Shown: positions 16,070 to 63,506 of the stretch, one piece after another
How positions within the stretch are numbered: position 1 is the first letter of the stretch
How the letters are laid out: each line of letters starts with the position of its first letter
From: Halichondria panicea
Lineage: Eukaryota > Porifera > Demospongiae > Suberitida > Halichondriidae
NCBI RefSeq assembly: GCF_963675165.1
Contig: NC_087377.1
Coordinates: forward strand, 5,394,042 to 5,458,041
Reading direction: 5' to 3'
Length of the DNA: 64,000 nt
Notes under the pieces: model-generated
Told to the model about the DNA's origin: nothing
What the model saw: only the letters and a program-made list of their open reading frames with translations
Databases searched by the model: none
Made by a program: the position numbers and the translations under genes

Positions 16070-19000
16070 ATGTCTAATCTCTCAGTCAAAGATTTGAAGA
16101 CAGAAACAGGAGTAACAGACTATCAATTGAAACAAAAATGTCAGGACGAACACTTAAGAAAAATTTCACTATATGTCGGAGGAAAACGCCATAATCGCCA
16201 TGATTTGGTCACTAAATTTGGCTTGCTCCCTGCTCTCATAACTGGGATTCAAAATGATCCCTCATTGTCGTTTGCCCAACAAACACAGAAAATGTTCACG
16301 TGTTGGAGAGATAATAACATGAATGCTACTTACTTGGAGTTTGTGCAAGTTTGCCTTGAGCTTGGCAATGGGGACCTGGCAAGTAAAATGTGTGAAATCT
16401 GTATATATATAATTATACATAATATAATGCTGTGCATGGTCTCAATAACGTCTGCTAAACCTTTGCACTAATTGTGGTAATAATGTTTCTTTGGATATAG
16501 AGGGTGTCAAAGATCTACCATTTCCTGAAGCGACAACACCAGGTATAATTAAATTGTGGGATTTTAACATTATAAAGCTGAAACACGCTTTTTTAATCGT
16601 ACAGGTACCGAAGTCAAAGAGATTCCACCAGCAAGCACTCTGCCAAAGGTACACCTGTCAATGCATGTGGTATAGTGAGTGAGGTGTCATAGCATTGGTA
16701 ATTATAGTGCAGCCACCTTCCTAGCTGATATTCAATGCTGAATGTAGCATTGGTAGTATTATGTTGGAACCACCCACATACCAGTATAGAGCATGCATAT
16801 TCACGCTCTGTTATATGACAGTATAATTATTGATAGCATGTTTATTATGGCAACCACATTTAGGTATAGGTATACACAGATCTCTATTTTCATATTCTAT
16901 ACTCTGGTGATAAACTAATCGATATGCAGACAGAGGGGATGCAGATGTTTTGCACCACTGACGATGAAAAACTGGAGCAGGTTGACCCAGCTGATGCCTC
17001 CAACATCCCAACAGATGCTCAGGGTGGCTTGTTGTGGGATGTGAAGCAAGTTCCAGAGCTGAAAGTTCATTTTTTGAACCCTGAAATTCTCACGAAAAAT
17101 AATTGGACATGTGGGCATAGCCATGATCAACTGACAGCCAACAATGTGCTTGACTGGGCCACTATCTGGAATAACCGTGCTGAAAGCTACCCACTGATTG
17201 CTGATGAGCTAGCAACAAAAGAAAACGCTCATATCCGTGTGGAATTTACCAGTGACAGTGAGTATGTTCATGCAGTCTCTATACACACTGTAGTAGCCCT
17301 CTGATTTATAGCACAATGTGAGTTAACCACCACACTTCAAACCTCATAAAAGTTTAAAGTTTCTAGTATTTTGGTATAACACGAAAGAGGCATGAACAAT
17401 GCATGCATGCATTTTACAGAGAAAGTGATATCATGGTCAAAGGTTGGAACCGCAGCCACCTGGCAAACTGACAAGAAGAAACCAACGATGGTGCTGAACT
17501 TGTATGGCATGGCAAAAGCTGAACAGAGAAGCATGGTGACTCATGAGTTTGGCCATGTTCTGGGACTGGATCACGAGCATCAGCGATCCGATTTCTGGGA
17601 TGTGCTGGAATCAAAAGATGAGGAGGAAGGATATCGATTTATTATTGGGAAAAGGCAAATGAAGAGTGGAGATGGTGGGCGTTGCCAGCGAGCTTGTGAT
17701 GCAGTGTTCAGAGCTAAGCTGAAGGAGCCATCCGAAAGAAAAGAATCCTGTTACGATTCTGACAGTATTATGCACTATTGGTGAGTTGTATACCATCACT
17801 ATGATGATTAGTGTGATGCTATTGCAACCACAAGTACACTTCTTTGGATTCCTGCATGGTTAATACAGAAATTAGGTTACAGCTGTGCAATGTGCAACAG
17901 CTGTCATAAAAACTCAAATCCAACATCTATAATTGCCCAAACTTTTATTTCCTAAGGACTTATTAACCCGAGGCGTGCCACAGGCTGCGGTTTATAGTAG
18001 TCGGTCAATCTGTCTGTCTGTCTGTCTGTCGTTCCATGTATTCTGAGTCTATACTCACCTACGCGATAGCACTAGCATGGATAGCACTAGCATGGATAGA
18101 GCGTCAACACCAAGAGGTAGTAGTTTCAGATTTTGAATTTTGATGTTAAAGCTTCGTGTCGAATAAAAGCTCAGAAGCTAAAAGGCTCGAACCAGCACGT
18201 ATTCATGCAGTTGTGTACATGGTTTCACAATAAAAGGAGCTATAGCTAGTGCAGCGCAATGGAGTAAGAATAGTTAAAAGGTTGGGGGGCCACTTGGGTG
18301 CATGGTGCTTTGCACCACCCAAGCAAGTGGGATTGCTCCTGGCGCGGAGCACCAGAAATTTGAGACCGGAAGCCACACCCCTCATTATGACATCATAATT
18401 AGCTGCGGCCTAGCTACAAGCTCTGAACAAGAACTCAAGTGTATATAATAATTATTTGTACTCTCAAAACCCACACACACTGAAGTTTGTATAATAATGC
18501 CGTATACAAGAATTGCGTTCAAAATAAAACATGTTACAAGAGTATCATCATTCAGAAACATCCAAAAAAGCAATCCTTATACCACACTTACGTCACCACA
18601 AATTGATCTCATTGGTCAACAGCTGTAGGATATATAGAATATTAGCATACAGCCCCAGGCATGCACAGTTTTCAAGTTGTTTTTTAGTTTTTTCATTTGT
18701 TCAAGAAAGTAAGCAAAGATAAAAGAGCCATGCTTGACGGTACTAAGACTCAAAGCGACGGCAGAAACACGGAAGGTGCTCTCCAACAAGATGGCTAAGC
18801 TTCCATGGGTCCATGGGCGCGGTTTAGATACCAAGAAGAGCTTGCAACTCCAGTAAGGGACGTCGAATGGTCAACGCTTGGACCAAGGAAGCTCTTGAAC
18901 ATCTGTAGGAGTCAACATGTTGCTCAACTAGCTCTTTGACGGCTGCAAAATCCGGCATAGTCTTGTTCTTTTTTGCAGTCTGCATCGTGATTGAATTGTT

Positions 19001-20070
19001 GCTAGGGGGAGGTCCTTTTATAGTGCTGCGGTCACGTGGTATAAGTCAGATATGCCACACCTACTCGGAGGATATGCACCCTATATATCCTCCGCTACCG
19101 TGGTTACATACGCCTCGGAGTAACCACGGTAGCGGAGGATATATGGGTGCATATCCTCCTCTTAGGTGTGGTATATCCTATACTTCTTTTACAAATTCAT
19201 GCTTTCTCCTTGTCAATTGGTTAATTAGAACACCTATCCAACTCAGGAATTAGGGTGGGCCCATTTAATGTTAGGGGGGGCATTGGCCCCCTGGCCCCCC
19301 TGTTCCTACTCCACTGCCAGTGTCTAGTGCAGTGTAGTGAAAATCGATGTTTACTATACATGCATGCATGGTTTAAATTGCAACTTGAGTGGATGGTGTA
19401 AATTGCTACTTTTCAATTGTAATTATTATATAGGTTTGACAAAAACTGGTTGTTGCCGGAGTATCAGGAAAGTGCAAATGTGGCTAAGGTTAGGAACGAG
19501 CGGGAGAGGAAGGTGCTATTGGGAGTTCATAAACGTGACTACCACAATGGGAATCTGGCAGAAAAACCATCCAAGCTGGACTATGAGACATTAAATAGGG
19601 CATATGAAATACCAAGGTTTGATAATAATTATTGCTCAGCAAATGCAATGATACCAAATACGACAAAATTGATAATTCACATTTATTTTAACTTGCCGAG
19701 TGAGGGGACTTAAATTCTATGCAATTTTGATAAATGTCAGTGTCAGGGCCACAATGTTCCATAATTTATAGGCCAATTCTCGCCTCTCAAAAATTGGGAA
19801 CTGTTGTCCTCGTGTTCTTGTGAAAACAAAACACAAAGCTTGCTCACTGCATTTAATTAACATCATTAAATTTTTAATTGCTTACGATTGCATGAGTACG
19901 GTAACATTTGTAGTGATCTATAGTTCAAAGTACACGTAATTCATTGTGTAGAAAAGGCTGCAGTGAAATGGTCACATTTTGACTTCTCGTTAAATGTGCT
20001 TCTTGTATATGTAGTGGGCTACCTCCACCAGATGCTGCTACTGCTCCTCCAACCACTTCCCAGGTCAGAG
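16070..20070 (+). CDS. Death-domain + astacin-like metalloprotease, unit 1
   Basis: Exons: 16070 to about 16382, 16501-16542, 16605-16648, 16930-17257 (A), 17420-17780 (B), 19434-19616 (C) and 20015-20070 (linker). Phases match throughout. Exon 1 starts at ATG after a leader shared with 59688 and encodes a Death domain (VKDLKTETGVTDYQLKQKC...). Exon A has the N-terminal protease fold (LLWDVKQVPELKVHFLN, then IRVEF). Exon B has SWSKVGT, PTMVLNL, the zinc site HEFGHVLGLDHEHQRSD at 17542-17592 and the Met-turn SIMHY. Known families with this zinc site and Met-turn are zinc endopeptidases of the astacin/metzincin type. There is no signal peptide or transmembrane segment, so an intracellular protease is implied. 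Donor choice for exon 1 is uncertain: the longer option at 16400 would create a stop. The 1.65-kb intron before C holds an inverted SD-A piece. The gene may continue into unit 2. Confidence 0.7.
18010..18031. repeat. (TCTG)n microsatellite
   Basis: Five or more TCTG units in the protease unit 1 intron. The paralogous intron has the same tract near 22374-22395. Confidence 0.85.
18824..18985 (-). CDS. Small conserved frame, 53 codons, unknown
   Basis: ATG to TAA on the minus strand. The product starts MQTAKKNKTMPDFAAVKELV and ends ...LLELQALLGI. Homologous DNA in SD-A copy 1 (9048-9104, ATG changed, early TGA) and copy 2 (from about 45744, stop after VEHL) is broken, so this is the only intact copy. 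No family recognised. It may be a gene fragment or element-encoded frame carried by the SD-A module. Only its conservation as an open frame supports coding. Confidence 0.3.
   Translation of the reverse strand: MQTAKKNKTMPDFAAVKELVEQHVDSYRCSRASLVQALTIRRPLLELQALLGI
19055..19171. repeat. Long hairpin (about 50-bp arms)
   Basis: The left arm from CCACACCTACTCGGAGGATA and the right arm ending TATCCTCCTCTTAGGTGTGG are complementary. The inner 37 bp (GGATATGCACCC...GTGGTTAC) pair perfectly apart from one bulged base, around a 12-nt loop. The SD-A equivalents at 45625-45680 and 8960-8990 are shorter. Confidence 0.85.
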
Positions 20071-20295
20071 GTCAGAATAGCTATGTGATCTATCAAAACA
20101 TTGTAATGTTTGGCTAAAGTGACTTTTTGTGGTGTGTTGTGACTCGGTTTTATAATGATTTCATCAATTTTTTTGCCTGCCACCCTGGTCTGTTTTTGGA
20201 GATTAAAAGTCTGTGAAACATAATGGTGTGGCCTTATGATCATGCACTGCATGGGTGATATACAAAGGAATTGGGTATTATTGATAGTGTTTACT

Positions 20296-20775
20296 TTACT
20301 ATACCCACTATCAGAGGAGGTACGACACGGTCACATGACCAGCTAAAAGGATTATGAATCTCATTTAACTTGTGCATGAATATCATTCAAGACTGTGTAC
20401 TTTGATAGTGGATTTGGTTTGGCGTGTATCTTTCAAAGAAATACACTTGACGTTTCTAAGATCAGGATGGTTGATTGCTGGGCTTATACTGATGTGAAAT
20501 AGCTTTTCAACCAGTTTCAACCACCACTTAGATTTTGAGATATTATTGTTTTTAGTGTAATTCTGTTTTAATAAGTATTCTGTGCCTGTATTCAGGATAG
20601 GATCACTGCCAACATCTGAGCCTTGGTTCTTACAACAAATCTAATCTCTACTTGTAAAAGTCTAGCTACATTTACTACATTACTTTGTCTTTCTTGCCTG
20701 CCTTCAATCAAGAAATAGCAGCCACGTGAGCTTAACCGCATGTCATACCTCCTCTGACCCACTATTAGACCTCTA
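20296..20775. mobile_element. Possible inverted-repeat element between protease units
   Basis: CCACTATCAGAGGAGGTACGAC near 20308 is mirrored by GTCATACCTCCTCTGACCCACT near 20744, giving an imperfect inverted repeat. No coding capacity, ends not precise. Confidence 0.35.
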
Positions 20776-20855
20776 TCACATGGCATTGCATGGGCTTCAA
20801 CTCTAGATCTGGTGATACACATTCTATTTACATGCGTGCATGCCATTGTGTGCAG

Positions 20856-23800
20856 AAAGAGGAAATACCGATGTTTTGTACCACTGACGATGAGAAATTG
20901 GAGCAGGTTGACCCCGCTGATGCCTCCAACATCCCAACAGATGCTCAAGGTGGGGTAGCACGACGCCACTTGCTATGGGATGTGGAGCAAGTTCCAGAGC
21001 TGAAGATACATTTCTTGAATGACGAAATTCTTGAGGACGAGCACTGGAAATGTGGGCATGCGGGTCCCTTAACAGTCGACACTATCCTGGCTTGGGCTGC
21101 TGTCTGGAATAGCCATGCTGACAACTACCCACAGATTGCTGAGGGACTAGCAACAGAGGAAAAAGCCCATATCCGTGTGGAATTTCGAAGTACATGTATG
21201 TTCCGTTTCTATGTACACTGTATTGTAGCTCTTGGTTCTATAGCTCATTGAATTTCAGCTCAATGTATTATACTTAGTCATGTATGTGCTTTAAGTGTTT
21301 ATTGTTACAGGGAAAGGGATCTCGTGGTCAAAGGTTGGAACCGCAGCCACCTGGCAAACTGACAAGAAGAAACCAACGATGGTGCTCAACTTGTATGGCA
21401 TGGCAAAAGCTGACCAGAGAAGCATGGTGATTCATGAGTTTGGCCATGCTCTAGGACTGGATCATGAGCATCAGCGATCTGATTTTTGGGATGTGCTGGA
21501 ATCAAAAGATGAGGAAGAAGACTATCGATTTATTATTGGGAAAAGGCGAATGAGGAGTGGAGATGATGGGCGTTGCCAGCGAGCTTGTGATGCAGTGTTC
21601 AGAGCTAAGCTGAAGGAGCCATCCGGAAGAAAAGAATCCTGTTACGATTCTGACAGTATTATGCACTATTGGTGAGTTGTATACCATCACTATGATGATT
21701 AATGTAATGCAGTGCTTACGCAACCACAAGTACACTTTTTTGGATTCCTGCATGGTTAATACAGAAATTAGGTTACAGCTGTGCAATGTGCAACAGCTGT
21801 CACAAAAACCCACGTCCAACATCTGTAATTGACTAAACTTTTATCTCCTAAGGACTTATTAACCCGAGGCTAGGCCTGTGCCAAATATTATTCATTCGCA
21901 CCTATTCAACTTCATCAGCCTATTATTCAAATTGATGACACCTATAAATTATATAGCACGGGATTTCAGCAGCGAAATATCAAACTTTAGCAAAAAAAAT
22001 TTGGTTTCAATTGATTGGACTAACAATAATTATTAGATTTACTGCCATGTAAAATGTGGGCGTGTTCTGAGCTACTGCGCATGTGCAACTCAATAAACTA
22101 TTTTCACAGTGCCTATTTATTTATTCAAATTGAAAAAAAGGCTGCCTATTAAATGTATTAAAAAAAATTATTCCGGACTATTTGGCACAGGCCTAGCCGC
22201 GGCTTATAGATCTCTTTCACTAAGTGTTCCACTATCTCCCTGCATGGTGATACATTCTTGTATTACCTGAGCCCGGCTGATTGTATCAGTTGCGATATTC
22301 TCCGGTTGTCTTCAAGGAAAGCTCCTCTCTCTAGTGTAAGTTGCTCTACTTGCTAAAACTAGTAGTCGGTCAGTCTGTCTGTCTGTCTGTCTGTCGTTCT
22401 ATGTATTCTGAGTCTACTCACCTATGGTAGTTTTTAATTTGGCAGATTTTGAATTTTGATGTTAAGCTTCATATCAAATAAAAGCGAGCAGAAGCTAAAA
22501 AGCTCGAACCAGCACGTATACAGGCGGCTTTGTCTCGAGACTGTAGACTCACTAAACTCAAATGAACGCCGAGGGTTTGCACTTCAGTTGTATACATGGT
22601 TTCACAGTAAAAGGATCTGGTGCAGTGTAGTGAAAATCGATGTTCACTATACATGCATGCATGGTTTAAATTGCAACTTGAGTGGATGGTGTAAATTGCT
22701 ACTTTTCAATTGTAATTATTATATAGGTTTGACAAAAACTGGTTGTTGCCGAAGTATCGGATGAGTGCAAATGTGGCTAAGGTTAGAAATGAGCGAGAGA
22801 GGAAGGTGCTATTGGGAGTTCATAAACGTGACTACCACAATGGGAATCTGGCAGAAAATCCATCCAAGCTGGACTATGAGACATTGAATAGGGACTACTA
22901 TGAAATACCAAGGTTTGATAATTATTATTATGCCTCGGTGCGCATGCGCAAGCGAGATATACGGTAGTGTGTTTGTGTGTCTGTGTAGATTGCTACAGCT
23001 GTTCAAGGATGAATCAAGTGCAAGTAAGAGTTTCTATGGGCTTCTAGTCATGTTTACTTGGATTTTAATCCGTGGATTTGCAAAATAATACTTTGTTCTC
23101 AAGTTATGCCTACTTGGAATGCCATTGCAGCCTTTTCAGAAGAGCACGTAGCCAAACTTTTTTTATTACCGAGTGTTACTACTCTACTTAGTAGTTAGCT
23201 CTGCACTAGAACGCTAGCTATTGGTAGCTGCAAGAGTGAGGAAGAGAGCTGCAAGGCTCTGCTGATGGCAACCATTAATTTTAGACTTGAACTTTTGGCA
23301 TCGATCGTTTTTAACAAGAATCATAGTCGATCATTACCTACTCTTCGAGTTGCCTGTAGCAAATTGCAATGTTCATCATGACTGTGTATAAAAGCTATTA
23401 GTAGTTTTATGTATGTAGCTTTGGCATCTCCACCGAGGCATCAGCGCCCATGGTGCTTTCATTTTAACTATTATTATTTTGCATGCTCTTCATATTTTTT
23501 CTAGTTTAATAGTATAGTTATGTTAAAAGTTTCAGTTTGCATGCAGCAAAATAATTATTGCAAAAATTTAGTTATAAAACCTATTTAATAGTAGCTTTAT
23601 GTTATAGCTTTGGCATCTCCACCGAGGCATCAGCACCTGCGGTGCTTTCATTATACTCAGCATTTGAATCTAATGCAGTGATATCAATACAATAATTCAC
23701 ATTTTTTTTTACTTGCCGAGTGAGCGGACTTAAATTCTACAATTTTGTTATAATTGTTATGTTCCAACCATAATTTATAGGCCAATTCTCGCCTCTCATA

Positions 23801-26865: not shown

Positions 26866-29800
26866 TTCAGACTGAAGCGACTGCAGCACAGCTGAGTCAA
26901 CAGTGTTCTAATGACGCTCTCATCCAGTTGTCTACCGAGATTGCTGACTATAATGGTTTCAAAGTCAAGCTGGGCCTCAGTGATGCTGAAATTAACGCTA
27001 TTGATCAGTCACCGGTCACAATTAATGGGAGATTTTATGCTGCTCTGAAAAAGTGGAAAAGTAAAGGCATGTTTGATAGGACAGCCACATATGGTCGATT
27101 AATGGAAATTGCTAAGAAAAAGGGAGACGCATTTGCATTTCAGAGGATTCAAAGCACCTGTACCAAGTATGCAAGTAAGTAGAATAGTTCACACTCAGAC
27201 ATTAGAGAGAGCTTGAACTTTGTTGCTGTATTATACGCCACTGAGAGGGTATAATTATACAAGACATGCAGCGGACAGTTATAGCTATTATAATTATTTG
27301 AATGCATATTTTTTCTAGTTAGTAGAGACTATCTATATAATAATAGCACTATAACGTTATAAATGGATCCTGTGTACTCCAGCTCATTTCCAACGAAGTG
27401 GGTGTGGCTTAGAGCAGCAATCAATTATTGTATAGCATGCAGAATAGCAGATGTAGACTTTTGAAGCTGAAGAGCACTGCAAGATGATTTCTGCTATCTC
27501 TTGTTATACTACAATCATGTAGTGTATGTATGTCACAATTGTTGATCATTATAGTCATTAATCAACCCCATGACCAGAAAAGCTACACTGATTGTGCTTT
27601 TAAAAAAACACAGTTGACCTTTTTTTGTTTCTTTCAATTGCCTCCCCTTTCCAAGAGTCCTGGATCCGCCCCTGAAGACGGTGGTGGCCCCATGGCAAAT
27701 AGCAGTGATGATGATTTCACAGACCTGCATACGGAAGAAGAGGATTACTCACCACAACCAGATCCCCCCTAGGTTTACTTTGAAAGCATTATGAACAAAA
27801 TTAGTATAAAGAGCAAAAAGTAGTTTATAACTTTTAATATTATGCGACACCCTCGATATTTTTCAATTTTCTTTTATGTGTCGCCTTAAATCGAACAAGT
27901 ACAGTATTGAAGATGCCAATCAAGATTCAAAAACAAGACATCTCATAGCTAGGTACTAGTATCCTTGATGGGGTTATTGTACATAGAGATACACAACATA
28001 GCCTACCTCAAGGGTGGCTGTCAGAGCTAAAGAAGCTAGGACGTTTTGAACATTTGCGACTGCGTAGAGCTATAGGATCTGTATATATGATTATATGCAA
28101 ACCAGAGATATCATTCCACCATGCACCTTGTTAATTGTGAATTAGGAAGAGATACAAAGATTAGATGTTATAGGCATGCATTTGTGCCTATAATGACTTA
28201 GTATAATTATTTAACACTATTATTGCAGGGTCACCATTTGTTTTTTTGATTCAACCCAAAGACGTTTACTGTAAACCTGGAGATAAAGCTGAATTTACAG
28301 TATCGACATCACCATCATCTACACATACATGGTATTTTAACGATCAAGCAATATCTCTTCCTGATGAACAAAATTTACTCCCTGAATATGAAGGACAAAA
28401 ATCTGAACGGCTCCTGATATTAAAAGTCATTCCTAAGCATAAAGGAGTTTATTCGTGTATTGCTGAAGATGAATATGGTACTCGGATCACCTCAAAACGT
28501 GTAGTACTCATTGCAGGTACTTGTCGCCTACTTATTTTTTACCTTTATGATAATAATAAAATTATTATTCTAACCATGCTCATTGTAGTCATAGTGCACA
28601 TGTGTGATACTGATTTTTACGCACAGAGGGAGAGAAGATTGAAAAGCAAGAATTACAATTCATAGGGAAAATTCTGGAAAATTCTGCTATTGACTTTGGA
28701 AAAGATGGAATTAAGACAGTGGACCTACTCAATGGCGAAGGTGATGTCACTTACGAAGAAATGGAGTTTGTAATGAAAACAAATCAGAAGACTCAATTGT
28801 TGTCAATAAACCTAAAGCAGGAAATCACATCAAGTAAGAATTATTATCTCAGTGATCAGTGTTATCTGATGTACCCACCGTATTCATTGTGTTGTATACA
28901 CAGGACAGAAAGAGGAGCAACTCTATGATGAAGCCATAAAGTTTAAAGGGAAGGTCTCCCTTACGTACACCAAAATCCTTGCCCTGGGTCCAGGTCAGGT
29001 TGGAAAGTCTACTTTTATTAACAGATTGTTGGGGAAAATGGAAGGGAACATCCAAAAATCTCCTCCAGAAACACAGCCTCAATCGAGTACAGGTATTTCG
29101 GAGGTGACAGAAGCTTGTATACAGTGTTCAACAATAACTGGTGCTGTAACTACTAATAGTACAACTGGTGCTGTAAACGGTAAAAAATGGTGTGTTGTCA
29201 AAGACGAGCTGTGCGATCAACTTAGTGGTTTAATGTCACTAATAGTGAATAAGCCATCTCAGGGCCTAAAGCACAAACTGCATGGAATCCCAAAAACAAT
29301 CATAACTAACAAGGTTGAAGTTATAGAAAAAGAATCAGTGGTTGATGCTTTTCCATTGCAAGAGGAAGAGAAACATACATTACTCAATGAATACAATCAT
29401 TCTGTGGAGGCACTGCCAGTTTCTAGATCTAGTTCTACTCCAGAGTCAAGACACGATTCATTAATTCCCCAGGATTCAGATATTGACAAAACGATTATGG
29501 ATTTCCAAGAACTAAAAGAGGAATGGAGTCATAGACTAGATAGCATGGATTTTGAAATGCTATTTACTGTAGCTGATGTAGGTGGACAACCAGCATTTCT
29601 AGAAATGCTACCGTCCTTAACTATAGGACCAGCTCTATACCTTGTGTTTATGAAACTTAAACAAGATCTAAATTTTAGAAGCAAGGTGCAGTTTAAATGC
29701 AAGGACTCGCGTACCAAACATTTCGAGAATTACTCGTACACTTCAGAAGAAGTCATTTTTGCAGCACTTTCAAGCATAGCTTGCTTTGGGCACTCAGATG

Positions 29801-35800: not shown

Positions 35801-36681
35801 TGTGTTTGTGGAAAAGGGTCGATACAATAGAAAGCTAGAATTGTGTCTGGTTTGTCTCTGTTAGCTGACTCAAACTCTGGGATCCTACTCCAGGAGCCAT
35901 ACTTCTCTGCATGAGACTCTAGGCTTCTTTGCTGTGATCCTGTCCACAGTGCATATATCTATCTATGTACGTACCACTAAAAGTAAAACCCTGTTCTTAA
36001 ATGTTTCGCATCATGCCTCCAGTTAGATGGGCGTGGCCCGCCTCCAAAAGGCCACGCCCATCTAGCCTCCAGTCTGGTTTAGCTCCTGGGTTGCTGTGCT
36101 ATAGACAGTTACATGCAGTTAAGTCATACGTACATGATATTCATCACTACATGCACTGCATTATATCACTCTTCTGGTTTCTTAATAATCATGTCAAGTT
36201 TTTATACTTGATCATAAGTAATCATGATTTAATGACTGCAGGTGCACAAAATGCCTCAGGAAGGCCAACAGAAAGTAGTGAGAAGGGAAAGAGTGAACCT
36301 AAACCTGTTACCAGGACTGAGGAGACAACACAATCTGGTCGAAAACGCGGAAGAGACCCACCTGCTAGCAACCCAAAGAGACCAAAAGTGATACGGCCAG
36401 GAAAGATCGAAGGTGATCAAGTTCTCATGAAGATTGGCCGCAAGCTTGGAGTCAAGTGGATGGATGTTGGTGTGGAATTAGGAATGAAGTACGAGGACCT
36501 CAAAAACACAATCAAAGATGACCACAACATAGAACACCACCTCAAACCAATGGATATGTTTCAAAAGTGGAAAAGTAAAGCTGGTGACTCTTTCACGTAT
36601 GCAACACTGGCCTCAGCACTGGAAGAAGTTGGCCTCGATACATGCGCACAAACACACTGTTATATGAATAATGATATATAG
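26866..36681 (+). CDS. Death - Ig - Roc/COR-like GTPase - Ig - Death protein
   Basis: Exons: 26866-27174 (Death), 28229-28516 (Ig; CKPGDKAEF, TWYFNDQ, GVYSCIAEDEYG), 28627-28833, 28904-31185 (GTPase/COR), 31242-31494 (second Ig-like, YEWFLGKKKL), 31545-31610, 31854-31985, 34344-34415, 34496-34582 and 36242-36681 (Death, stop). Apart from the two phase-0 ends around 31185/31242, every junction is phase 1. The large exon has a P-loop GPGQVGKST at 28987-29013, DVGGQ near 29575, a weak G4 (LVGTFLDEI, no NKxD) and COR-like blocks (LVFSTISELI, GYLPLGFVCAL). A Cys/His-rich end (CHCDQDTH, CTHPDC) follows. About 190 residues separate P-loop and DVGG, far more than in usual Roc domains. Likely a cytosolic GTPase scaffold signalling through Death domains. 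No start-codon exon was found, so the 5' end is either undetected or supplied by the protease units upstream. Confidence 0.7.
27175..28228. other. Intron with duplicated segments and transposon end
   Basis: 27240-27360 repeats 245-420 (both follow the same Death exon). 27655-27677 carries a solo terminus CCTGGATCCGCCCCTG of the family complete at 48231-48652. 27894-28050 repeats 24462-24660. No exon recognised. Confidence 0.6.
33480..33860. mobile_element. Dispersed repeat, TGCCTCGGTG family (partial)
   Basis: Starts ATGCCTCGGTGCATGCGCAC and follows the 22928 and 60402 copies to the ACAATCATGGTCGATCATT block. An inverted end CGCTTGCGC...GAGGCATAATTATT lies just upstream at 33436-33465, and a short further piece at 34590-34650. 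Confidence 0.6.
34014..34250. mobile_element. MITE with GATGGAGCGTCTTACTA ends
   Basis: GATGGGAGCGTCTTACTACA at 34015 and its near complement TAGTAAGACGCTCCATC ending near 34245 form the termini of a ~235-bp non-coding element. Confidence 0.7.
34312..34330. repeat. Poly-C tract
   Basis: A run of about 18 C just before the acceptor of the linker exon at 34344. It may serve as a polypyrimidine tract. Confidence 0.8.
34870..35000. repeat. Long palindrome (about 45-bp arms)
   Basis: The left arm AGGAGGTCCGACATGCGTGC...AGTTCAGTGCAT pairs with ATGCACTGAACTTG...TTGGACCTCCT, with a few mismatches around a ~40-nt centre. It is probably a compact MITE. Confidence 0.75.
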
Positions 36682-42744: not shown

Positions 42745-42797
<53 letters not shown>

Positions 42798-49521: not shown

Positions 49522-49534
49522 ATACACTACATCC

Positions 49535-50760: not shown

Positions 50761-53700
50761 TCTATAATTATGGAAGTTTACTAGCTATAATAATTATTAT
50801 AACTATGTACAGGTCAGTATGGTATACTTATAGCCTCGATCCCAGGCCGAGTTTTCGCTTTTATAACGGCTAGGCGAACAACTGGGCCTGGTACTAGTTG
50901 TCTGCGCATGCGTCAAATTTTCATTGTATATTTGTGGTCGGCAAAAATATTTAATAAATCAATAATTGAAATTTGTACACAGAAAATGCACAGAGTGAGT
51001 ACACAAAAGATGCACATAGGGAGCTGCTTCACAAAGGCCTGGGGAGTTGCCAGTTGTGCTGCAGCACAATTACAGTGACCCAGGGCAACTTCAGGATGAT
51101 TGAATGCCTTCAAATTACGTTTCAAAAAGATTTAGCAGGCTGCTGGACTTCTCTGATTCTAGGCACCAACTCGTAACTCATTGCTTGAGAAAACGTAGAT
51201 TCTCTTGATGTCTCTGAGCTACCCAGCAACGCTCGAATGAGCAGGTCATACTCCAGTCCTGTGTCTGTGAGTATAGGACAATATTAAAAGAAACCAAAGA
51301 CGGTTAAACCCTTACCTCAAACTGTCCAGTCTCGTCCGTTAGTATAGCCAAGAGGAGCACTGTTGGGATAGCTGGATATTAGCCATTGCTCCTGTACAGA
51401 GAAGTAGACATTTTAAATACGTGTAGATCTATACATATTAAATTTCTCGGTTATAGTGTCATTGTCGACGAGCTGATGATGGCAGCACCAAGTTCTCTAG
51501 CTCACACTCTTCACTTGATCCACCATATTAATGATGAAACTATAGTCTACCTACATTCGATATTCTTGCCAAACATGAACAAGACTTGATAGCATAGCCG
51601 GCCATAGGACCCACACAAAAATATCTGACCTTAACAAGCTTGACAAAGCTTTATACCTTTTCCCTTGTTGTTCAGTCTTCAGAATAAGCTTCAGAGAAGA
51701 GAGAAGCTTCAGCTAAGAGCCATTCCAATCGATTCCAATAATGATAAAACGGGAACTGACTTCTAGTACACGATAGTACACGAATATAAATGTCACAAAA
51801 GTGAACGAGAATATCCATTCGTCAGAATCTGACGAACGATTGACGCATGCGCAGACAACTAGTACCAGGCCCAGTTGTTCGCCTAACCGTTATAAAAGCG
51901 AAAACTCGGCCTGGGATCGAGGCTAGGTATACTTATAACTTGGTCCCCGTGGGTGTTGCTACTCACAGGAAATATTAATCGGTCACCAATATCTTGTTCT
52001 ATGCAGGTCTTGTACAGAAAATCCTATCAACCAGGCATGTACAATTTATTTATGCATCCTGGTTGCAATTGTGGGCTTCACGATCCTGTATAATTTTATT
52101 GCAAAAGGTTTGTAGGCTTAGCTTGCTATAATGTGATATGACACCTAAACTCTTATCAGCGCACTTCCTTTCATAATCAACGAATTACATGCATGCATCT
52201 GCATATAAATTAGGTGCATTCCTCAGTCTGTTTTATTGCATGGATGTGCAGGGATGTGCAAGGAGAGTTTCTATTTTGAACCTATCATTATTGCATTGAA
52301 TGATGTCGACCTGAACAATAAGTGCACTTTGTAAATTTATTTTAAACTAAGATTAGAAGCAACTTTTTACAGACAATTCGGATCTGAACCTCATGCAGGT
52401 TCCGAATCTGCGACAGAGGGGATGCAGATGTTTTGTACCACCGAAAAAGAGGAGCTGGAGCAGGTTGACTCAGCTGATCCCTACAAGATCCCAACAGATA
52501 CTCAGGGTGCATGGGTAGCACCATACCACTTGCTGTGGGATGTGAAGCAACTTCCCGATCTGAAAGTGCATTTTTTGAATCCTGACATTCTTGACAACGA
52601 ACACTGGAAATGTGGGCATGCGGGTCCCTTAACAGTCGACATTATCCTGGCTTGGGCCGCTGTCTGGAATAGCCATGCTGATCACTACCCTAAAATTTCT
52701 AATTATGTAGCAAAAAGGAAAAAAGCTCATATCCGTGTGAAATTCACCAGTGACAGTGAGTATGTTCAGTCTCTATACACAGTACTGCAGTGTACTATAA
52801 ATGTTCCTCATAACAACCACCACATGCATAATTAAGACAGCACAGCTCTAGGTATAACACTCATGTACTACAAAGAGGCATGAACATGTATGTACCTTGC
52901 ATTTACAGAGAAAGTGTTCTCATGGTCAACGGTCGGACGATCGGCGTTGGATGTAGACAAAAATGAGCCGACAATGATGCTCAACTTGTTTGGCATGACG
53001 AAAGCTCTCCAGGGAAGCACGGTACGAATGGCTCCGTTCGATCAACACGCAGAAGCTCCCTCTGAACATCTCCTTTCATGAATTTGGTCATGCTCTAGGA
53101 CTGTATCACGAGCATCAGCGATCCGACTTCTGGGATGTCTTGGAACCATTCACTATCGGAGAAAGTCGAATGAAGAGCGGAGATGGTGGACGTTGCGAGC
53201 CAGCTGTTAATGCTGTGTTCAGAGATAAGCTGAATGCACCACACTGGAGTCAAATATCCAGTTACGACCCAGACAGTATTATGCACTATTGGTGAGTTAA
53301 TTGTACTATGCAGCCCTTGCAGTGCCAAACACACTCTTTAGATTCCTGTTTACTGAAGTAGCAGGGGCTATTATTTCTAAAAGCTAATAATTATCATGCA
53401 ATAATAGCGGACCCTATAGCTATAATAAGGATCTGCTTGCATGGTTTCACAGTAAAAAATTGAGTATACGATTGAATGATGATCGACATTTATGTAGGTT
53501 TGACACGAAATGGTTGTTATTGAAGTATCAAAATCGTTCAAATGTGGCCAAGTATGTGAAAGATGAGCGAGAGAGGAAGGTGCTGTTTGGAGTACATGAC
53601 CGTGACTACTCCAATGGGGAGTTGGCAGAAAATCCCTCCAAGCTAGACTATGAAACATTGAATAGGGCCTATGAAGTAATAAGGTATTATGAGCTCTTGA

Positions 53701-54592
53701 TACAACTATACATGCATGAGCTTGTATCTTTAATTTTTTACCGGTAAATTGTTGATAGTGAGTGCCTGCACCATACACAAGGCATTTCGTTTGTCATTGT
53801 CAGGTCCCCAAGGTAGCCTCTCTCATTTATTAGCATAGTTGCCAGGAGTAACATGCACATAATAGACGGCTGTATAATCATTATTATTAATTTGTGAGTC
53901 AATAATTATTATAATACGCACTTCTTTGCATAATTGTAGCGGGCAAAAGGTGCCCCTAACTACAGCTGCTGCTGGTCCCCAAGGCACTTCCCAGCAAACA
54001 AAGCCTGAAGGTGAACAATTGCATGCATGAATGCTTAACTGAATCATTGGAAGAAATTTAGCATACTGGATTGTTTCAGAATCAGGAACTTATTATTGTC
54101 TGGATAATTGGCCTCCAACATAAGGCTATTGCATGCACTGTATAAAAAAAGCTTAGCTGCATGGTATGAATAGCTCTTCGTGTGTATGTATCTAAAATGA
54201 CCCAATTAAATTGAGCTTTATGATTTGTATGACATCGTGCTTACGTGAATACTTTAGGATCATCATCAGATGAGTATTCAAGCAAACAATCTAACGTCAT
54301 AGAAATTGAGAAACAATCAATTGTTTTAACTGAAGCGGATATTCTAACAATTTGCGAGGGTCTGAAAACTGCAAGCAATAATTGGTTAATTTTAGGATTG
54401 GCTCTCGGAGTGAAGTTATACGATTTAAAAAACATCGAAAGTAGATACCAAGATAACAGGCGCTGCCTAATGGAGATGATAATCAAGCTTCTTGAAATCG
54501 CTGACCCAAAACATCCAATCACCTGGCTCTACATATGTGAATGTCTAAGGAGTATTGATCGTAAAGATGTAGCCAATCTATTATGTGGCTAG
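49943..54592 (+). pseudogene. Damaged transmembrane/astacin-like protease/Death gene, unit 3
   Basis: Recognisable exons: 49943-50020 (linker), 50291-50407 (transmembrane), 52007-52107 (second, diverged transmembrane exon), 52399-52755 (A), 52909-53291 (B), 53498-53683 (C), 53940-54010 (linker ending KPEG) and 54258-54592 (Death, stop). Phases match from A to the end. The C-terminal Death domain reads LTEADILTICEGLKTASNNW then CECLRS. Several lesions are visible. The first Death exon is missing. The first transmembrane exon has a 9-nt deletion that makes TGA at 50389-50391. The second transmembrane exon is frameshifted relative to the first. In exon B about 49 extra nucleotides before the zinc site shift the frame, with a stop at 53079-53081. 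Beyond that point the zinc site (from 53077), Met-turn and Death domain are intact, so a shorter or re-spliced product cannot be excluded. Confidence 0.65.
50831..51925. mobile_element. Long-TIR Mutator-like element with possible captured exons
   Basis: TAGCCTCGATCCCAGGCC at 50831 begins an ~80-bp inverted repeat (through TTTATAACGG and ACTAGTTGTCTGCGCATGCG). Its complement ends at 51925. The 10-bp duplication GGTATACTTA lies at 50821-50830 and 51926-51935. Long inverted repeats plus 9-11 bp duplications fit Mutator-like elements. No transposase. The interior has exon-like stretches on the minus strand. It sits in the intron between the two transmembrane exons of unit 3. Confidence 0.75.
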
Positions 54593-55826: not shown

Positions 55827-56026
55827 TACCGTATAGCGTGTAATTTTCGTGGGGGTAAAATATTCGTGGTTTTCTGACCACGAATATTTTACCCACGAAT
55901 GAAGCGACCTTGCCTACCTTTACCTGGCAGTGCAAGCAGCAACCACGAAAATATTACCCCACGAAATGTCTCAATATTGCTGAACCACGAATATTTTGTC
56001 CCCCGAAAAATACCCGCTATACGGTA
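55827..56026. mobile_element. Palindromic MITE, ACCGTATAGCGGGTAA family
   Basis: Termini TACCGTATAGCGTGTAATTT and complement ACCCGCTATACGGTA. About 200 bp. The interior is nearly identical to 14453-14663. Confidence 0.85.
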
Positions 56027-56174
56027 TATTATTATTATACACATTCTGACAATTATTGCTTAAATCACACGTATATTCCTCAAACGTTTTCTTTTTTTTT
56101 CAAGAACTCAAGTATACACACACGTATACACACAGTACAGCAACAAAGTAGAAAATGTTGATAATAAATAAAAC

Positions 56175-57832: not shown

Positions 57833-57841
57833 GGTAGTGGT

Positions 57842-57899
57842 TAGCCTCGAATCCAGGCCGATTAAAGTACGTATTTTAATCGGCCTGGTCTCGAGGCTG
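57842..57899. mobile_element. Minimal two-terminus element (58 bp)
   Basis: TAGCCTCGAATCCAGGCCGA directly faces its complement TCGGCCTGGTCTCGAGGCTG with almost no interior. GGTAGTGGT flanks both sides (57833-57841, 57900-57908). It shares termini with the 50831-51925 element. A similar pair without clear duplication lies at 26236-26270. Confidence 0.7.
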
Positions 57900-57909
57900 G
57901 GTAGTGGTT

Positions 57910-59027
57910 AGTTCACTGAAATTGTGGTGTTGTGCAGCAATTTACAGTGTATACGCTAATTAATAGATGTACTGCATGGGTATATGCTTTTAACTATGAT
58001 CTATACACATTGTAAGCAAATTATCTCCCTCAAAAACACTATAATAAATAATTGTGTGATGTTTGAGTTGACTGAGAATTGTTTGAGGTGCTGTGTGTTG
58101 TTTAATTTGTCGGCAGTGTATTGTATTTCAAAAATAGGATCTTAATTAAGACTAGATCTACTATACTGCAGAGAGGAGTTATTCAATCCAGGCTACATGT
58201 ATTAAACTGCTGTTGGTGCATGCAATGCATAGATAGAGTGCATGTACATGTGTAGAAATGCTCCAGAGCTGAGCCGCCCCCACAACACAGAGGTCAAAGT
58301 TCATGGATACTTTCTCTTGTTAGGGTAATTATGATAAAGGCTAGTATGGCTAGGCTAGATAAAGGTCTATGTAGACTCTACCATTTAATATGCATTATGC
58401 TATGCCAGTGACTAATCTAGATCCAGCTATCTATATTTTGAGGAAGCAATATGTGAGTTACACTGGTACATAGTCTTGATAGAAGATGTCTAGTATACCG
58501 TAAAAACTCGATTTATTACGTTTTGCAAAAGTAAAGTTTTAATGTACACACAAAAAAAGTTATATGGGCGAATGTTAGAGGGTCGCCTTAAATCGAGGTT
58601 TTACGATAGTATATTAAAAAATCATTGTAAAATTATGTGATCTAGGCTATAATGTACTGTTTTAGCATATAGCGCATGTGCATAAGTGTTTAATTTGTCG
58701 GCAGTGTATTGCCGATATTTATTACCGGACCTCTATTAATTAAGACGACACCTTCCGGTTCTCGTTAGAGGTTGAAAAATTAGTAAAACTTGGTGTCACA
58801 TGATTTATAATTTATATTAGATATTTTTGTTGCTTCTGGAGGTAACTCTACTCAATCTACTTGCCTTGATTTCTAGCCACTTAAAACGTGTATTTTCCAG
58901 TGGGCTAGAATCGAGGCTAAGGTGTGGTTACATTTACCTCCATTTAGGATGCGACATTAAAAAATAATTTCTGTAAGTGATTATATGAATAATATTTTCA
59001 TATGAAGACACTTGTGTACATGTATTA
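57910..59027. other. Gene-poor stretch
   Basis: Two copies of GTTTAATTTGTCGGCAGTGTATTG (58108, 58688) mark a repeated segment. A terminus GGGCTAGAATCGAGGCTA of the 50831 family is near 58903-58920. No exon recognised. Confidence 0.45.
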
Positions 59028-59289
59028 CAGTGGAACCTCTGCATGTTAACAACCACCTCCGAATAAAGGCCGGTTGCTATAATTATAACGGCCAGGCACC
59101 CAGGTCCCAAATGAACAGTTTGTGTACAAAACAATCTCTCAACAAAGACCACCTCTGTATAAAGGTCAAAACATTGTTCCCCAAAGGTGTCCGTTATGAT
59201 GCGATAGATAGATAGATAAATTTTCATTAGAATAGGAATGCTACATCCACCATAACGGTAGGTTTTCATGTTAAGGAGGGGTTCCACTG
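59028..59289. mobile_element. Tc1/mariner-pogo-like MITE
   Basis: CAGTGGAACCTCTGCATGTTAAC and, in complement, CAGTGGAACCCCTCCTTAACATG form inverted ends. TA lies on both sides (59026-59027, 59290-59291). The interior is non-coding with a short GATA tract. The TA duplication and CAGTGGAACC ends resemble pogo/Tigger-type elements. Confidence 0.7.
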
Positions 59290-59687
59290 TATGATAATTA
59301 CTGTTGCCAGAAGATAGAATAGCTTTTATTCTCTCCAATACAGTGAGTCTTGTGAGCTCTCTTCGTTTTCTTTGTAGTGACCATTGTATTGATGAGCGAG
59401 GTGTTGAGCAGTTTATTAATAATAAATGCGGTACACACACACCTGTGGTGCTCCTTGGGTTAAGAATGACAGATAGACTAAATTGTATGACATTTGTTTA
59501 CATTTGTTTCCAAAGGAAGCCTATAAAGACGTTCCTATGGTTTGATCTAAAAGTCGACTTCACTGCTCGAGTATACATGTATAGCTACATTTTTCTTCGG
59601 TTCAGTCGCACTGTCTTTGAGTTTTTGACATTATTATTATTATACCAGCCCTGAACATTCCTGTACATTTTGATTTACTAGAAAACG

Positions 59688-62600
59688 ATGGCTGCACTCA
59701 CACTCGACGATTTGATTCAGGAAACTAAAGTAACAGACGCTCAATTGGGACTGAAATGTACTGTAAAGCACTTGAAGGAACTTGCACCATCTGTCGGAAA
59801 CTACCCCAAATTTGCCTCTGCATTCAACTTGACTGGTGGTGACCTATCTAATATTGAAACTGATCTCAAATTGTCATACACCTCAAAAACGGAGCAAGTG
59901 TTTCTATGGTGGAGTAAAAATACCAAGAGTTCGACCTATTTGACGTTTGTGGAAACATGCCTCAACCTCAAGGAAGGCGGCTTAGCACGTGAAATGTGCA
60001 TACTCTGTCAAGGTATGCCACTGTGTGTCTGCTAGCTCTCTTATAATAGTTTGAGTTGTTGATAGAGAGTCTATGTATTATACATCTATAGTTCTCTATA
60101 GCTGTATATACGCACAAACAATAATTATATAGACTTTCTTCCATGCTTTTAAGAGGTAAAGGTCAACTTCAACAAGCAGAAGTTTAGTCATTAAAGTAGA
60201 ACCTTTAAATTTGAGGCTTCAATTCAGAATAAATACTAAAGCTCATAATTAAATTTAATCTTTGCATGAGTTGTTGATAGAGTCTACATCTAACTCTACA
60301 CACACTAAATATTGTGTTTAGATATCAGTATCCATCTGGACCAAATACTTTCTTCCATGCATGCATGCTTTTAAAGGTCAACTTCAACAAGCAGAAGTTT
60401 ATTATGCCTCGGTGCGCTAGTGTGTTTGTGTGTCTGTCTGTCTGTGTAGGCTGCTACAGCTACTCAAGGATCAATGAAGTTCAAGTAAGAGTTTTTATAG
60501 GCTTCTAGTCATGTTTTCTTGGACGTGGATTTGCAAAATAAGGCTTTGTTTTCAAGTTGTGCCTACTTGGAATGCCGTTGCAACCTTTCACCTTTCAGTT
60601 CAGAAGAGTGCATAGCAAAACTTGTCCATGGAGTGTTGCTACTCTACTTAGTAGTTAGCTCTGCACTAGAACGCTAGCTATCGGTAGCTGCAAGAGTGAG
60701 AAGAAAACTGCAAGGCTCTGCTGGTGCAGCCATTCATTTTTAGACTTGGACTTTTGGCATCGATCGTTTTTAACAACAATCATAGGTGATCATTACCCAC
60801 TCCTTGAGTTTCTCCCATCATGATATAATGTGTGTATAGCTAAAATAGCTATAGTAGCTTTATGTTATGTAGCGTTGACACCTCCACCGAGGCATCAGCA
60901 CCCACGGTGCTTTCAGTTATTTAAATTGAGTTTAAATTTGAGGCTTCATGATTTCACAGTAAATACTGCGTGCAACTCATAATCTTGCAGATACAAAAGA
61001 CAAGGAGCCAATTACCTCTGAATCTGCATGTCTAAGTACCTCCAAGTTCCCAGTCCTGTCTACTCAAGGTATTGCCCCTAATTATTATGCATATACTCAA
61101 AACAATAATTTGTTGAAACGTAACAGGTTGAACAATTATGGACATAATTACTAGCTGTTAGTATTGTCTCATTTGTCAATTCGTATTAAAACTATATTCA
61201 TGTAGACATTATTACCCGAGGCCATGCCGTGGCCAGCGGGTATCATAGTAGTTGTCTGGTCTGTTTAATTGTTTCTTTGTGACATCTGAGTCTGCTGTAC
61301 CTAGTCACATCTGTTCTTGTTCTATGTATGCAGGTCTGCTACAGAAAACGAAATTATCGACTAGGCATGTATGTGCATTTCTGGTGGTAGTCTCCGCGAT
61401 CCTAGGCCTGTATGTCACTGGCTTACCGGATTGGAATACAATAAAACTTATTGCAGAAGGTTTGTAGACTTATAGGTTGGCTATAAGAATGATATGTACA
61501 TAATTACGTCATCTATACTATATAAAATTATAGTCTGTATATAATTATAAGCATGCATGCGCACTCCCTTTCATAATCAACTGTGTATGCATGCATGGTA
61601 AATTAATTACCGTGACTGCATATACATTGATCAGTCTGTAAAGTATATTGTTTTTGCTTGATCCTGATAATTATATGCTTAGCATAATAGGTGTGTAAAG
61701 AATAATTGAGAGTAGGAGTCAACGCCAATTTTTGGTAAAGATCAGTTTTGCATTAACGACGTCACCATGGCACAAACAATGCCTGAAGGTGAATATTATA
61801 TTCTCTGGATCAATTCAAGTCAGCAAGATAACACTGAGAGTTATTTAATAAATTATGTCGTCTTCTTAATTTTGTTTATAATTATGGGGAATAATTGGAT
61901 TTTGTATGGAACCCTTTTCAAGAATGGGGGGGGAAAAATTATCGGACCTAATGTCTGCCCGAACAATACACTTCGTAACTGAGAATGGGGTACAAGTAAT
62001 TTGGATCTGTACTTACAGATTCACCCTTTGCATCTGCAAGCACCTCTCCACAAGCTTCACAGCCTCCCGAGGTACCTGACTGTATAAGATTGCTAAGTGA
62101 ATGTTGAGATTCCCTACTGATCAGCGATGGATCAGATATTTTGTGTACACTCTATAGCTACATGTATAGAGCATTCATGCTCAATATAATTATATCCACG
62201 TGCATGCATGAATACTAGTTTCATATTCAACTCTGCATGGTGGTACACAAAATAATAATACACATGCATGTGCAGACAGAGGGGATGCAGATGTTTTGTA
62301 CCACTGACAAAGAGGAGCTGGAACATGTTGACTCAGCTGATCCCTACAAGATCCCAACAGATACTCAGGGTGCATGGGTAGCACCACACCACTTGCTGTG
62401 GGATGTGAAGCAACTTCCCGATCTGAAAGTGTATTTTTTGAATCCGGAAATTCTTGAGGATGAGCACTGGAAATGTGGGCATGCGGGTCCCTTAACAGTC
62501 GACATTATCCTGGCTTGGGCCGCTGTCTGGAATAGCCATGCTGATCACTACCCTAAAATTTCTAATTATGTAGCAAAAAGGGAAAAAGCTCATATCCGGG

Positions 62601-63506
62601 TGATATTTAAGAAGGACAGTGAGTATGCTTATGCAGTTGTATCAAGCTAGAAATTAAGTGAGATATTATTTTATCACCACCTTTGAAGCATGCAGTTCTA
62701 TAATTATAAAACCCGACTATAGACTACCTATCGATACACCATTTCAGGCACAAACATGAGTCACATGTTCTTTTCTTGTACATGCATGCAGAGAAGGTGA
62801 TCTCATCGTCAAAGGTCGGACGTTCGGCATTAGATGTTGACACGAATGAGCCGACAATGGTGCTCAACTTGTATCGCATGACAAAAGCTCTCCAGAGAAG
62901 CATTGTGATTCATGAATTTGGCCATGCTCTAGGACTGTATCATGAGCATCAGCGATCCGACTTCTGGGATGTGCTGGAATCAAAAGACAAGGACAACCAG
63001 TATCGATTCATTATTGGGATAGATCAAATGAAAACTGGAGATGGTGGTAATTGCAATCCAGCTGTTGATGCTGTGTTCAGAGATGATAATGCGCCACTCG
63101 AAAGTCAAAAATCCAGTTACGACCCAGACAGCATTATGCACTATTGGTGAGTTAACTATAAATTATGGTTATTTGGGGCAATCCGCATAATGATAGCAGC
63201 TGTTACAAAACTAACAGTAATTTGTATAATAATAAATTTTAGCAGACCGTATATTCAATGGTTTCATGTAAATGGTGTACAGTGTATAACAATTAACGAA
63301 TGATCAATCCCAATGTATAGGTTTGACACAAACTGGTTGTTAAAGAAGTATCGAAAGCGTTCAAGTGTGGCTAAACATGTGGAAGATGAGCGAGAGAGAA
63401 AGGTGTTGTTGGGAGTTCATGACCGTGACTACCACAATGGGCAGCTGGCAGAAAATCCCTCCAAGCTAGACTATGAAACATTGAATAGGGCTTATGAAGT
63501 AATAAG
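59688..63506 (+). CDS. Death - transmembrane - astacin-like metalloprotease, unit 4
   Basis: Exons: 59688-60012 (ATG; Death domain, LDDLIQETKVTDAQLGLKC, then TYLTFVETCLNL), 60991-61068 (Ser/Thr linker), 61334-61459 (transmembrane helix HVCAFLVVVSAILGLYVTG after a KTKLSTR flank), 62019-62071 (linker), 62276-62618 (A), 62792-63146 (B) and 63321-63506 (C). All phases match. The zinc site HEFGHALGLYHEHQRSD is at 62911-62961; the Met-turn SIMHY precedes the B/C junction. There is no signal peptide. Basic residues before the helix and the N-terminal Death domain predict a type II membrane protein with Death inside and protease outside the cell. It could therefore couple surface proteolysis to Death-domain signalling. 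Exon C ends in phase 2 with no following linker seen before the window ends, so the 3' end lies beyond or is lost. A short extra exon near 61767-61788 is possible but has no clear acceptor. Confidence 0.72.
60402..60897. mobile_element. Dispersed repeat, TGCCTCGGTG family, in unit 4 intron
   Basis: From TTATGCCTCGGTGCGC to CTCCACCGAGGCATCAGC, about 500 bp, with the same internal blocks as 22928-23480. The part from 60585 is shared with 49535 onward. Confidence 0.65.
60585..61880 (+). repeat. Segmental duplication SD-D, copy 2
   Basis: Partner of 49535-50760. This copy keeps the transmembrane exon open. Confidence 0.8.

Follow-up and report, generated by a model that had tools for sequence, protein, structure and literature searches.

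Tandemly arrayed astacin-type metalloprotease genes paired with Death-domain exons in the sponge Halichondria panicea

Exons for astacin (M12A)-type zinc proteases are paired, in several cases in frame, with Death-domain exons in the genome of the sponge Halichondria panicea. The stretch analyzed here, hereafter the window, comprises 64 kb (C1:5394042-5458041, contig NC_087377.1) of this 131-Mb genome; coordinates without the prefix C1 are window positions. Our reading, to which we assign a probability of roughly 0.6, is that these genes represent a family of metzincin proteases with Death domains that has expanded within the lineage and is probably intracellular; its members would be activated on Death-domain scaffolds. 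Domain content, exon order, open frames, conservation and duplication can be read directly from the DNA, and on this basis the pairing of Death and protease domains is better supported and more general than a first-pass annotation of the window had held.

Protease array and catalytic domain

A six-frame motif scan of the window detected the zinc-binding motif HExxHxxGxxH four times, always on the + strand (positions 17542, 21433, 53077 and 62911) and each time followed by SIMHY. All four motifs continue with a family-specific glutamate, as do 13 copies chosen from 8 contigs, a set assembled without copies that have glutamine in place of the catalytic glutamate. Among these 13 copies the zinc ligands, the catalytic glutamate and the methionine and tyrosine of the Met-turn are invariant. 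The first-pass annotation had described four protease units sharing exons A, B and C, and this was borne out, with splice borders that are consistent except between exons A and B of unit 3. Its statement that all four keep a full zinc site and SxMHY turn holds for the motifs themselves, but the catalytic exon of unit 3 is frame-broken. When exons A, B and C are assembled, units 1 (31.9 bits) and 4 (38.1 bits) exceed the cut-off of Pfam Astacin (PF01400; 22.5 bits), in agreement with the astacin-like assignment made there, as does gene a of the surrounding array (29.5 bits); canonical astacins of the same genome reach up to 187.6 bits. Pfam and PDB profile searches identify the catalytic domain as a metzincin and not as a caspase-fold cysteine protease.

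Exons of the four window units, limited to those also backed by homology, hand-read borders or conserved phase (N-Death and C-Death, Death exons upstream and downstream of the protease exons; a slash marks the exon border):

16070..16402, +, unit 1 N-Death exon; start codon ATG at 16070, lacks the donor that paralogue b has
16501..16542, +, unit 1 linker exon E2 (EGVKDLPFPEATTP); its counterparts in a and b read in frame
16605..16648, +, unit 1 linker exon E3 (TEVKEIPPASTLPK); from paralogue comparison
16930..17257, +, unit 1 exon A; cysteine in FCTT, N-terminal part of the catalytic domain
17420..17780, +, unit 1 exon B; zinc site (HEFGHVLGLDHE) and SIMHY Met-turn
19434..19616, +, unit 1 exon C; completes the catalytic domain
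20856..21195, +, unit 2 exon A
21311..21671, +, unit 2 exon B; intact zinc site
22727..22912, +, unit 2 exon C
52413..52755, +, unit 3 exon A; end set by homology with f
52910..53291, +, unit 3 exon B; frame broken at ~53020-53070
53498..53684, +, unit 3 exon C
53940..54010, +, unit 3 linker exon (SGQKVPLTTAAAGPQGTSQQTKPE); hand-read
54258..54592, +, unit 3 C-Death exon with stop codon; start hand-read
59688..60012, +, unit 4 N-Death exon; phase 1 donor CAAG/GTATGC
60991..61068, +, unit 4 linker exon (DTKDKEPITSESACLSTSKFPVLSTQ)
61334..61459, +, unit 4 candidate transmembrane exon (VCAFLVVVSAILGLYVTGL)
62019..62071, +, unit 4 linker exon (DSPFASASTSPQASQPPE)
62276..62618, +, unit 4 exon A
62792..63146, +, unit 4 exon B; intact zinc site and Met-turn
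63321..63506, +, unit 4 exon C
C1:5458588-5458955 (L001:1089-1456), unit 4 C-Death exon, outside the window

The window covers part of a larger array. Together with 106.6 kb of the adjoining C1 neighbourhood, 170 kb in all were mapped with five models, namely N-Death (NDD), C-Death (CDD) and exons A, B and C. The protease array spans ~156 kb and contains 12 units, named a, b, c, d, e, f, g and u1 to u5 (u1 to u4 being units 1 to 4 of the window), and every match to the five models lies on the + strand. A genome search with the unit 4 protease as query returned 105 exon matches, whose density peaks at C1:5317712-5469510. Within the array, f, g and a further gene, h, on the one side and u3, u4 and u5 on the other are mutual copies that arose via segmental duplication (C1:5369978-5399675 and C1:5445967-5476268; offset 75-77 kb, identity 93-99%), although the two segments may be haplotypes retained in the assembly rather than a true duplication.

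The cysteine pattern of array members differs from that of canonical astacins: the four cysteines that a pair of canonical astacins from this genome have in common are missing in five array members, and a CWS cysteine is retained in several divergent copies. FC stands at the start of exon A in all five aligned array members, and by eye a cysteine lies at or just before the exon A match in 14 of 15 divergent copies, whose exon starts are approximate. The models of a, b, g and unit 4 contain no F.GD (the FXGDI prodomain motif) and no hydrophobic N-terminus, the highest 19-residue hydropathy within the first 45 residues being 0.23; this test used hydropathy on predicted start codons and not a dedicated signal-peptide program. 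Outside the array, three of 19 copies of exon B (L022, L023 and L027) read HQFGH instead of HEFGH and are predicted to be catalytically dead, and the Met-turn varies to SVMHY (C7 and C3:1362) or SIMHW (one C8 copy).

Death exons at both ends of the protease

An upstream N-Death exon is present in 7 of the 12 array units (a, b, f, g, u1, u4 and u5), and in 9 of them a Death exon lies 0.6-4.3 kb 3' of exon C. This downstream exon is of type 1 in a, f, g, u3, u4 and u5 and of type 2 in b, c and e; a Death exon ~11 kb downstream of unit d may or may not belong to it, and none lies between exon C of u1 and u2. Four exon chains selected by hand (a, b, g and unit 4, of which g and unit 4 are near-copies) are stop-free from the ATG of the Death exon to the end of exon C. 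The Death exon of genes a and b ends in phase 1 and is followed by linkers E2 and E3, with exon A starting in phase 0. Alignment gaps between a and b measure 3 and 6 bases in the linker exons and 38, 8 and 80 in three introns. Units c and e continue in frame from exon A to a Pro/Ala-rich linker and a type-2 Death exon 0.7 kb after exon C, and a basic linker (KRALASDKE..., KR...KR) precedes C-Death in the models of both a and u5. We infer that such exons are spliced into one mRNA. A full gene would then consist of N-Death (in some of the units), short linkers, an astacin-type domain spread over A-B-C, a further linker and C-Death.

Unit 4 is complete in sequence, with Death, linker, candidate transmembrane exon, linker, A, B, C and C-Death in that order. 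The first-pass annotation had joined Death exons to the N terminus of units 1 and 4 and to the C terminus of unit 3. Both N-Death exons are present, but unit 1 has lost its donor and unit 4 carries Death exons at both ends; the C-Death exon of unit 3 is likewise present, but follows a broken exon B. Thus, two of the three units named, 1 and 3, are damaged and 4 is good. The donor after the Death exon that is gone from unit 1, whose exons are open, is retained in paralogue b (AAAG/GTATAT). In unit 3, 51 bases replace 2 of paralogue f within exon B, so that the frame is lost before the zinc helix, and the two sequences are 96-99% identical around the break. A search for an N-Death match to unit 2, the catalytic domain of which is intact, found none nearby. 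A type-2 Death exon at 26.87 kb, 4.0 kb after its exon C, may serve unit 2 as its C-Death or be part of the Ig/Roc-COR gene that comes next.

The predicted transmembrane exon is in frame in both unit 4 and g, where 19-residue stretches average a hydropathy of 2.42 and 2.47, respectively. It would separate the protease and C-Death from N-Death across a membrane and thereby speaks against an intracellular enzyme. It fits fusions of another kind, i.e., receptor-like proteases with an extracellular or secretory catalytic domain and N-Death as cytosolic signalling tail, the unit 4/g form being the functional one. Animal astacins, which comprise a signal peptide, a prodomain and the catalytic domain, are indeed described as secreted or plasmalemma-bound in the parts of a 2023 review on which we draw (PMC9848320). 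We consider this alternative unlikely: the transmembrane exon was seen only in the near-identical unit 4 and g, and a and b have no such segment. Moreover, the C-terminal Death domains would end up extracellular, the canonical disulfide cysteines are missing, and the models of a and u5 carry the basic KR...KR linker. Going by the models, unit 4 and g may be membrane-anchored members of a family of otherwise probably intracellular enzymes.

Weighing the Death assignment and the pairing

Because single-exon Pfam Death calls are weak, we relied on family alignments, divergent copies and fold comparison. Single window exons fall below the cut-off of Pfam Death (PF00531; 22.6 bits), with 21.2 bits (3.1e-4) for unit 1 and 19.3 bits (1.2e-3) for the C-Death exon of unit 3. 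Above the cut-off are the type-2 exon of unit e (23.4 bits) and the C-terminal Death copies at C3:1437 (44.6 bits) and C3:1440 (40.1 bits), and by eye the N-Death query matches at least 14 genomic places that also exceed it. At a limit of E 0.1, Pfam Death recognizes five of nine C-Death members. When the predicted fold of unit 4 N-Death (pLDDT 57.8, i.e., low confidence) was compared with 48 chains, death folds occupied the top 11 rows (Z 6.7-4.5), and the next row was unrelated at 2.7. PDB profile searches with the N- and C-Death alignments were marginal, their leading rows being Fas and ankyrin-2 (0.041, 0.054) as well as PIDD and FADD (0.059-0.11), and Foldseek returned no match under E 0.001 for the two Death models, with an unrelated first row in each.

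The N-terminal exon, which the first-pass annotation had taken for a Death domain, received no non-Death assignment, but its single-exon scores are marginal and DUF1835 competes weakly. These scores head a series of results that weigh against the Death assignment and hence against our reading. Taken singly, four of nine N-Death exons reach Pfam Death at E 0.1, and DUF1835 likewise matches 4 of 9 (best 0.013); for unit 4 N-Death it even scores better (0.015) than Pfam Death (13.6 bits, 0.076). The joined protein of gene a has no Death match at E 0.01, the C-Death exons of unit 4 and h have no Pfam match, and the type-2 exon of unit b reaches 14.5 bits only, while that of unit c shows no Pfam Death match although it is homologous to the exon of e. 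The C-Death model of unit 3 is ambiguous (pLDDT 64.7, best Z 4.8, FADD 4.2), and in helical bundles a Z under ~13 may reflect a shared arrangement only.

A second group of adverse points concerns the joining, which was read from genomic sequence alone. Automatic splice models at low intron cost yielded many tiny exons and merged units 1 and 2; at higher intron cost tiny exons were still added and the N-Death exon of u5 was shortened. Several of the models contain such added exons, those of f and u5 stop short of C-Death, and that of b gets to C-Death via very small, doubtful exons. The model of the C8 copy described below trims the start of exon B, and at a C2 locus exon B alone was found, with a Pfam-positive Death match 4 kb away. 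Furthermore, 12 of 20 non-array units have no Death match in the flanks fetched, the 3' flank of C3:1433 being cut short by the edge of the locus. Some Death-protease adjacency is also to be expected, since Death exons are very common and clustered in this genome.

The copies outside the array speak to this last point. Death neighbours were examined for the array and for the loci fetched out of the 105 matches (C3:1388, most of C3:1405-1463, C3:4060, C3:1816, C7:4956 and weaker matches lie outside the fetched set). Of the 20 non-array units, 8 are accompanied by a Death exon that lies in order on the same strand, at the N- or C-position (six at E 1.3e-5 or better and two C6 copies at ~1e-3), and no opposite-strand Death match was found in the fetched flanks of the 20. 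At C3:1440, which has an exon B match 48% identical to the query, exon C and Death stand in one open frame of 222 residues; a sibling copy hints at short introns within this stretch, which by hand reading is in frame either way. A copy on C8 has an N-Death exon followed by A, B and C and yields an in-frame model. As a control, the 40 astacin matches above 80 bits were compared by eye with the Death matches listed, and 0 of 40 had one of these on the same strand within 10 kb; the canonical astacin match at C2:8288094 (+) has a Death match 1.5 kb off on the opposite strand.

Death and protease genes could also be separate neighbours that became interleaved by tandem duplication and are not spliced to each other. 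The abundance of Death exons (at least 150 matches in each of two genome searches), the broken donor of unit 1, the exon at 26.87 kb that may belong to another gene, and the non-array units without Death in their fetched flanks would all fit this explanation. We regard it as very improbable in view of the frame-consistent linker exons, the single open frame of exon C and Death at C3:1440, and the repetition of the order on other chromosomes.

Exon evolution likewise argues for function. No stop codons were found in the 52 array exon copies tested, exon B of unit 3 having been excluded beforehand, and the ratio of non-synonymous to synonymous substitution (Ka/Ks) is below 1 in every pair with Ka of at least 0.1: 0.37-0.59 for exon A, 0.24-0.38 for exon B, 0.17-0.61 for exon C, 0.40-0.64 for N-Death and 0.43-0.83 for C-Death. 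In some close pairs that differ by few changes the ratio exceeds 1, with 2.19 (a-b) and 1.05 (c-u5) for exon A, 2.06 (c-e) for exon C, 1.29 (b-u1) for N-Death and 2.53 (h-u5) for C-Death. These ratios, together with the broken frame of unit 3, the lost donor of unit 1, the Death-only genes and the 93-99% identity of the duplicated segments, would be compatible with domain-shuffling noise, in which a fast tandem array produces short-lived fusions that are mostly functionless pseudogenes. Given the stop-free exons, the Ka/Ks values of the more divergent pairs, the invariant zinc-site residues of the 13 chosen copies and the presence of the pairing at divergent copies as well, we find such noise rather improbable. 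Thus, the astacin-type plus Death architecture put forward in the first-pass annotation is upheld by in-frame array chains, by copies on other chromosomes and, module by module, by Ka/Ks below 1 in divergent pairs.

Further Death exons in the window are:

2018..2401, +, C-Death exon of h; homology with u5, no Pfam match at 0.01
14301-14396, N-Death exon relic; ~30 residues, 90% like unit 4
26866..27182, +, type-2 Death exon, 4.0 kb after exon C of unit 2

The N-Death exon of h is situated left of the window. In two array genes, e2 and h, the five-model mapping picked up Death domains but no protease exon. In its model, e2 (C1:5362426-5363583; L008 5927-7084) joins N-Death and C-Death in frame without a protease; its N-Death is 90% like that of unit 4, and e2 is a possible natural decoy. 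The type-2 Death exon of unit c is followed, in the model, by an exon resembling CARD (E 0.0017, below the cut-off; C1:5338239-5338438, L006). Outside the protease units, clear Death domains preceded by basic stretches lie at 5010-5393 (35.2 bits) and 36001-36678 (31.4 bits). A row of exons at 26631-31604 matches Death (1.5e-6), Ig (7.5e-9), a Roc/COR-A-like domain (9.7e-8, under the cut-off) and a second, weak Ig-like domain, and is possibly another unusual Death architecture. Just after unit 4, the - strand carries a phospholipase D-like open frame of 670 residues (L001:1768-3780).

Proposed mechanism, origin and relation to known systems

Since the models start at the Death domain and have neither a hydrophobic N-terminus nor FxGD, an intracellular, Death-clustered enzyme appears most likely. 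The Death domains would bring the enzyme together with receptors or adaptors in Death-domain assemblies, and clustering via Death-Death contacts would raise its local concentration. Release of an N-terminal latency segment would then relieve latency and allow the zinc protease to cleave its substrates. The cysteine just before the catalytic domain may provide this latency as a cysteine switch, by analogy with myroilysin; that this is an analogy counts among the weaknesses of our reading. Death-only copies and copies with glutamine for the catalytic glutamate would act as decoys or dampers. A protease-executed Death-domain pathway, as the first-pass annotation suggested, can reasonably be inferred from these features, and the family may have a role in immunity or cell death.

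The best solved relative of the protease is bacterial myroilysin, ahead of BMP1 (7.7e-9 by phmmer, 7.1e-13 with the family profile and 2.5e-12 with the exon B profile). A first bacterial scan with query A3 returned no relative; a scan with exon B alone found at least 120 relative-encoding stretches among the 591 matched ones listed, of which 80 were kept. The protease relatives at L030-L122 comprise bacterial loci (Pseudomonas, Bacteroidota and others) and 13 loci on viral contigs. A tree of 114 columns was built from 26 of the 80 kept bacterial loci, two of this genome's canonical astacins and 13 members of the family. In it, the family and the bacterial relatives stand apart from the two canonical astacins (98/97). 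The family forms one side of a branch with support 86/60, and one bacterial sequence (L050) lies beside it on a long branch. Because the tree has 114 columns and the bacterial loci were chosen for their likeness to the family, we take a bacterial-type origin as a lead and not as proof of transfer. Tentatively, and with less confidence than we place in the family itself, an early-branching animal might have acquired a bacterial-type (myroilysin-like, cysteine-switch) metzincin, fused Death domains to both ends and expanded it into a rapidly evolving set of active, dead and Death-only decoy members, i.e., a metalloprotease counterpart of the caspase arm in immunity or cell death based on Death domains.

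With myroilysin and the astacins (MEROPS M12A, PF01400), the family shares HExxHxxGxxHE and SIMHY. Myroilysin has a cysteine switch, and the family likewise has a cysteine N-terminal of the catalytic domain (PMC9848320, in the parts used here). In contrast to astacins, the family models lack a hydrophobic N-terminus and FxGD, and five array members lack the usual disulfide cysteines. Death domains, which the family possesses, are absent from the astacin partner list in Figure 1 of the same review; that list has no Death, DED or CARD and includes SH2, TPR and ZF-UBR, which are also typical of intracellular proteins, and the word "death" does not occur in the main text as far as it was available to us (PMC9848320). 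For the sponge Amphimedon, the accessible text of Kaur et al. (2021, PMC8195603) reports 357 TRADD-N proteins with Death-like and variable C-terminal domains including caspase, PNPase and HD; for bacterial systems with Death-like domains, it describes an effector that has inactive zincin-like metalloprotease domains. No active astacin-type protease-Death fusion is named in that text, where "astacin" occurs solely in the reference list. A 2026 paper on the sponge Dysidea avara counts 128 DEATH genes, and neither "astacin" nor "protease" occurs in its main text as far as accessible. In the open-access PMC literature, the sole literature source searched and seen in part, we found no description of an animal Death-metalloprotease fusion.

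A zinc protease in the slot of a caspase would, if true, mean that the scaffold logic is separable from the enzyme, that an early animal had a caspase-independent proteolytic route, and that a normally secreted class of proteases was relocated inside the cell. Apoptosis and inflammasome-type signalling depend centrally on death-fold proteins that are coupled in cis to a protease. The well-known proteases of death-fold signalling are caspase-fold enzymes, and initiator caspases and MALT1 combine a death fold and a cysteine protease in one chain. The family resembles them in that a death-fold recruitment domain lies in cis with an endopeptidase, and the clustering activation proposed here has its parallel there with a cysteine protease. 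Its protease-less and active-site-altered paralogues likewise resemble FLIP-like and CARD-only regulators. Unlike initiator caspases and MALT1, the family has a zinc metzincin as its enzyme and, in several units, Death domains at both ends. It would extend the known "death fold plus protease in cis" kind to another catalytic class.

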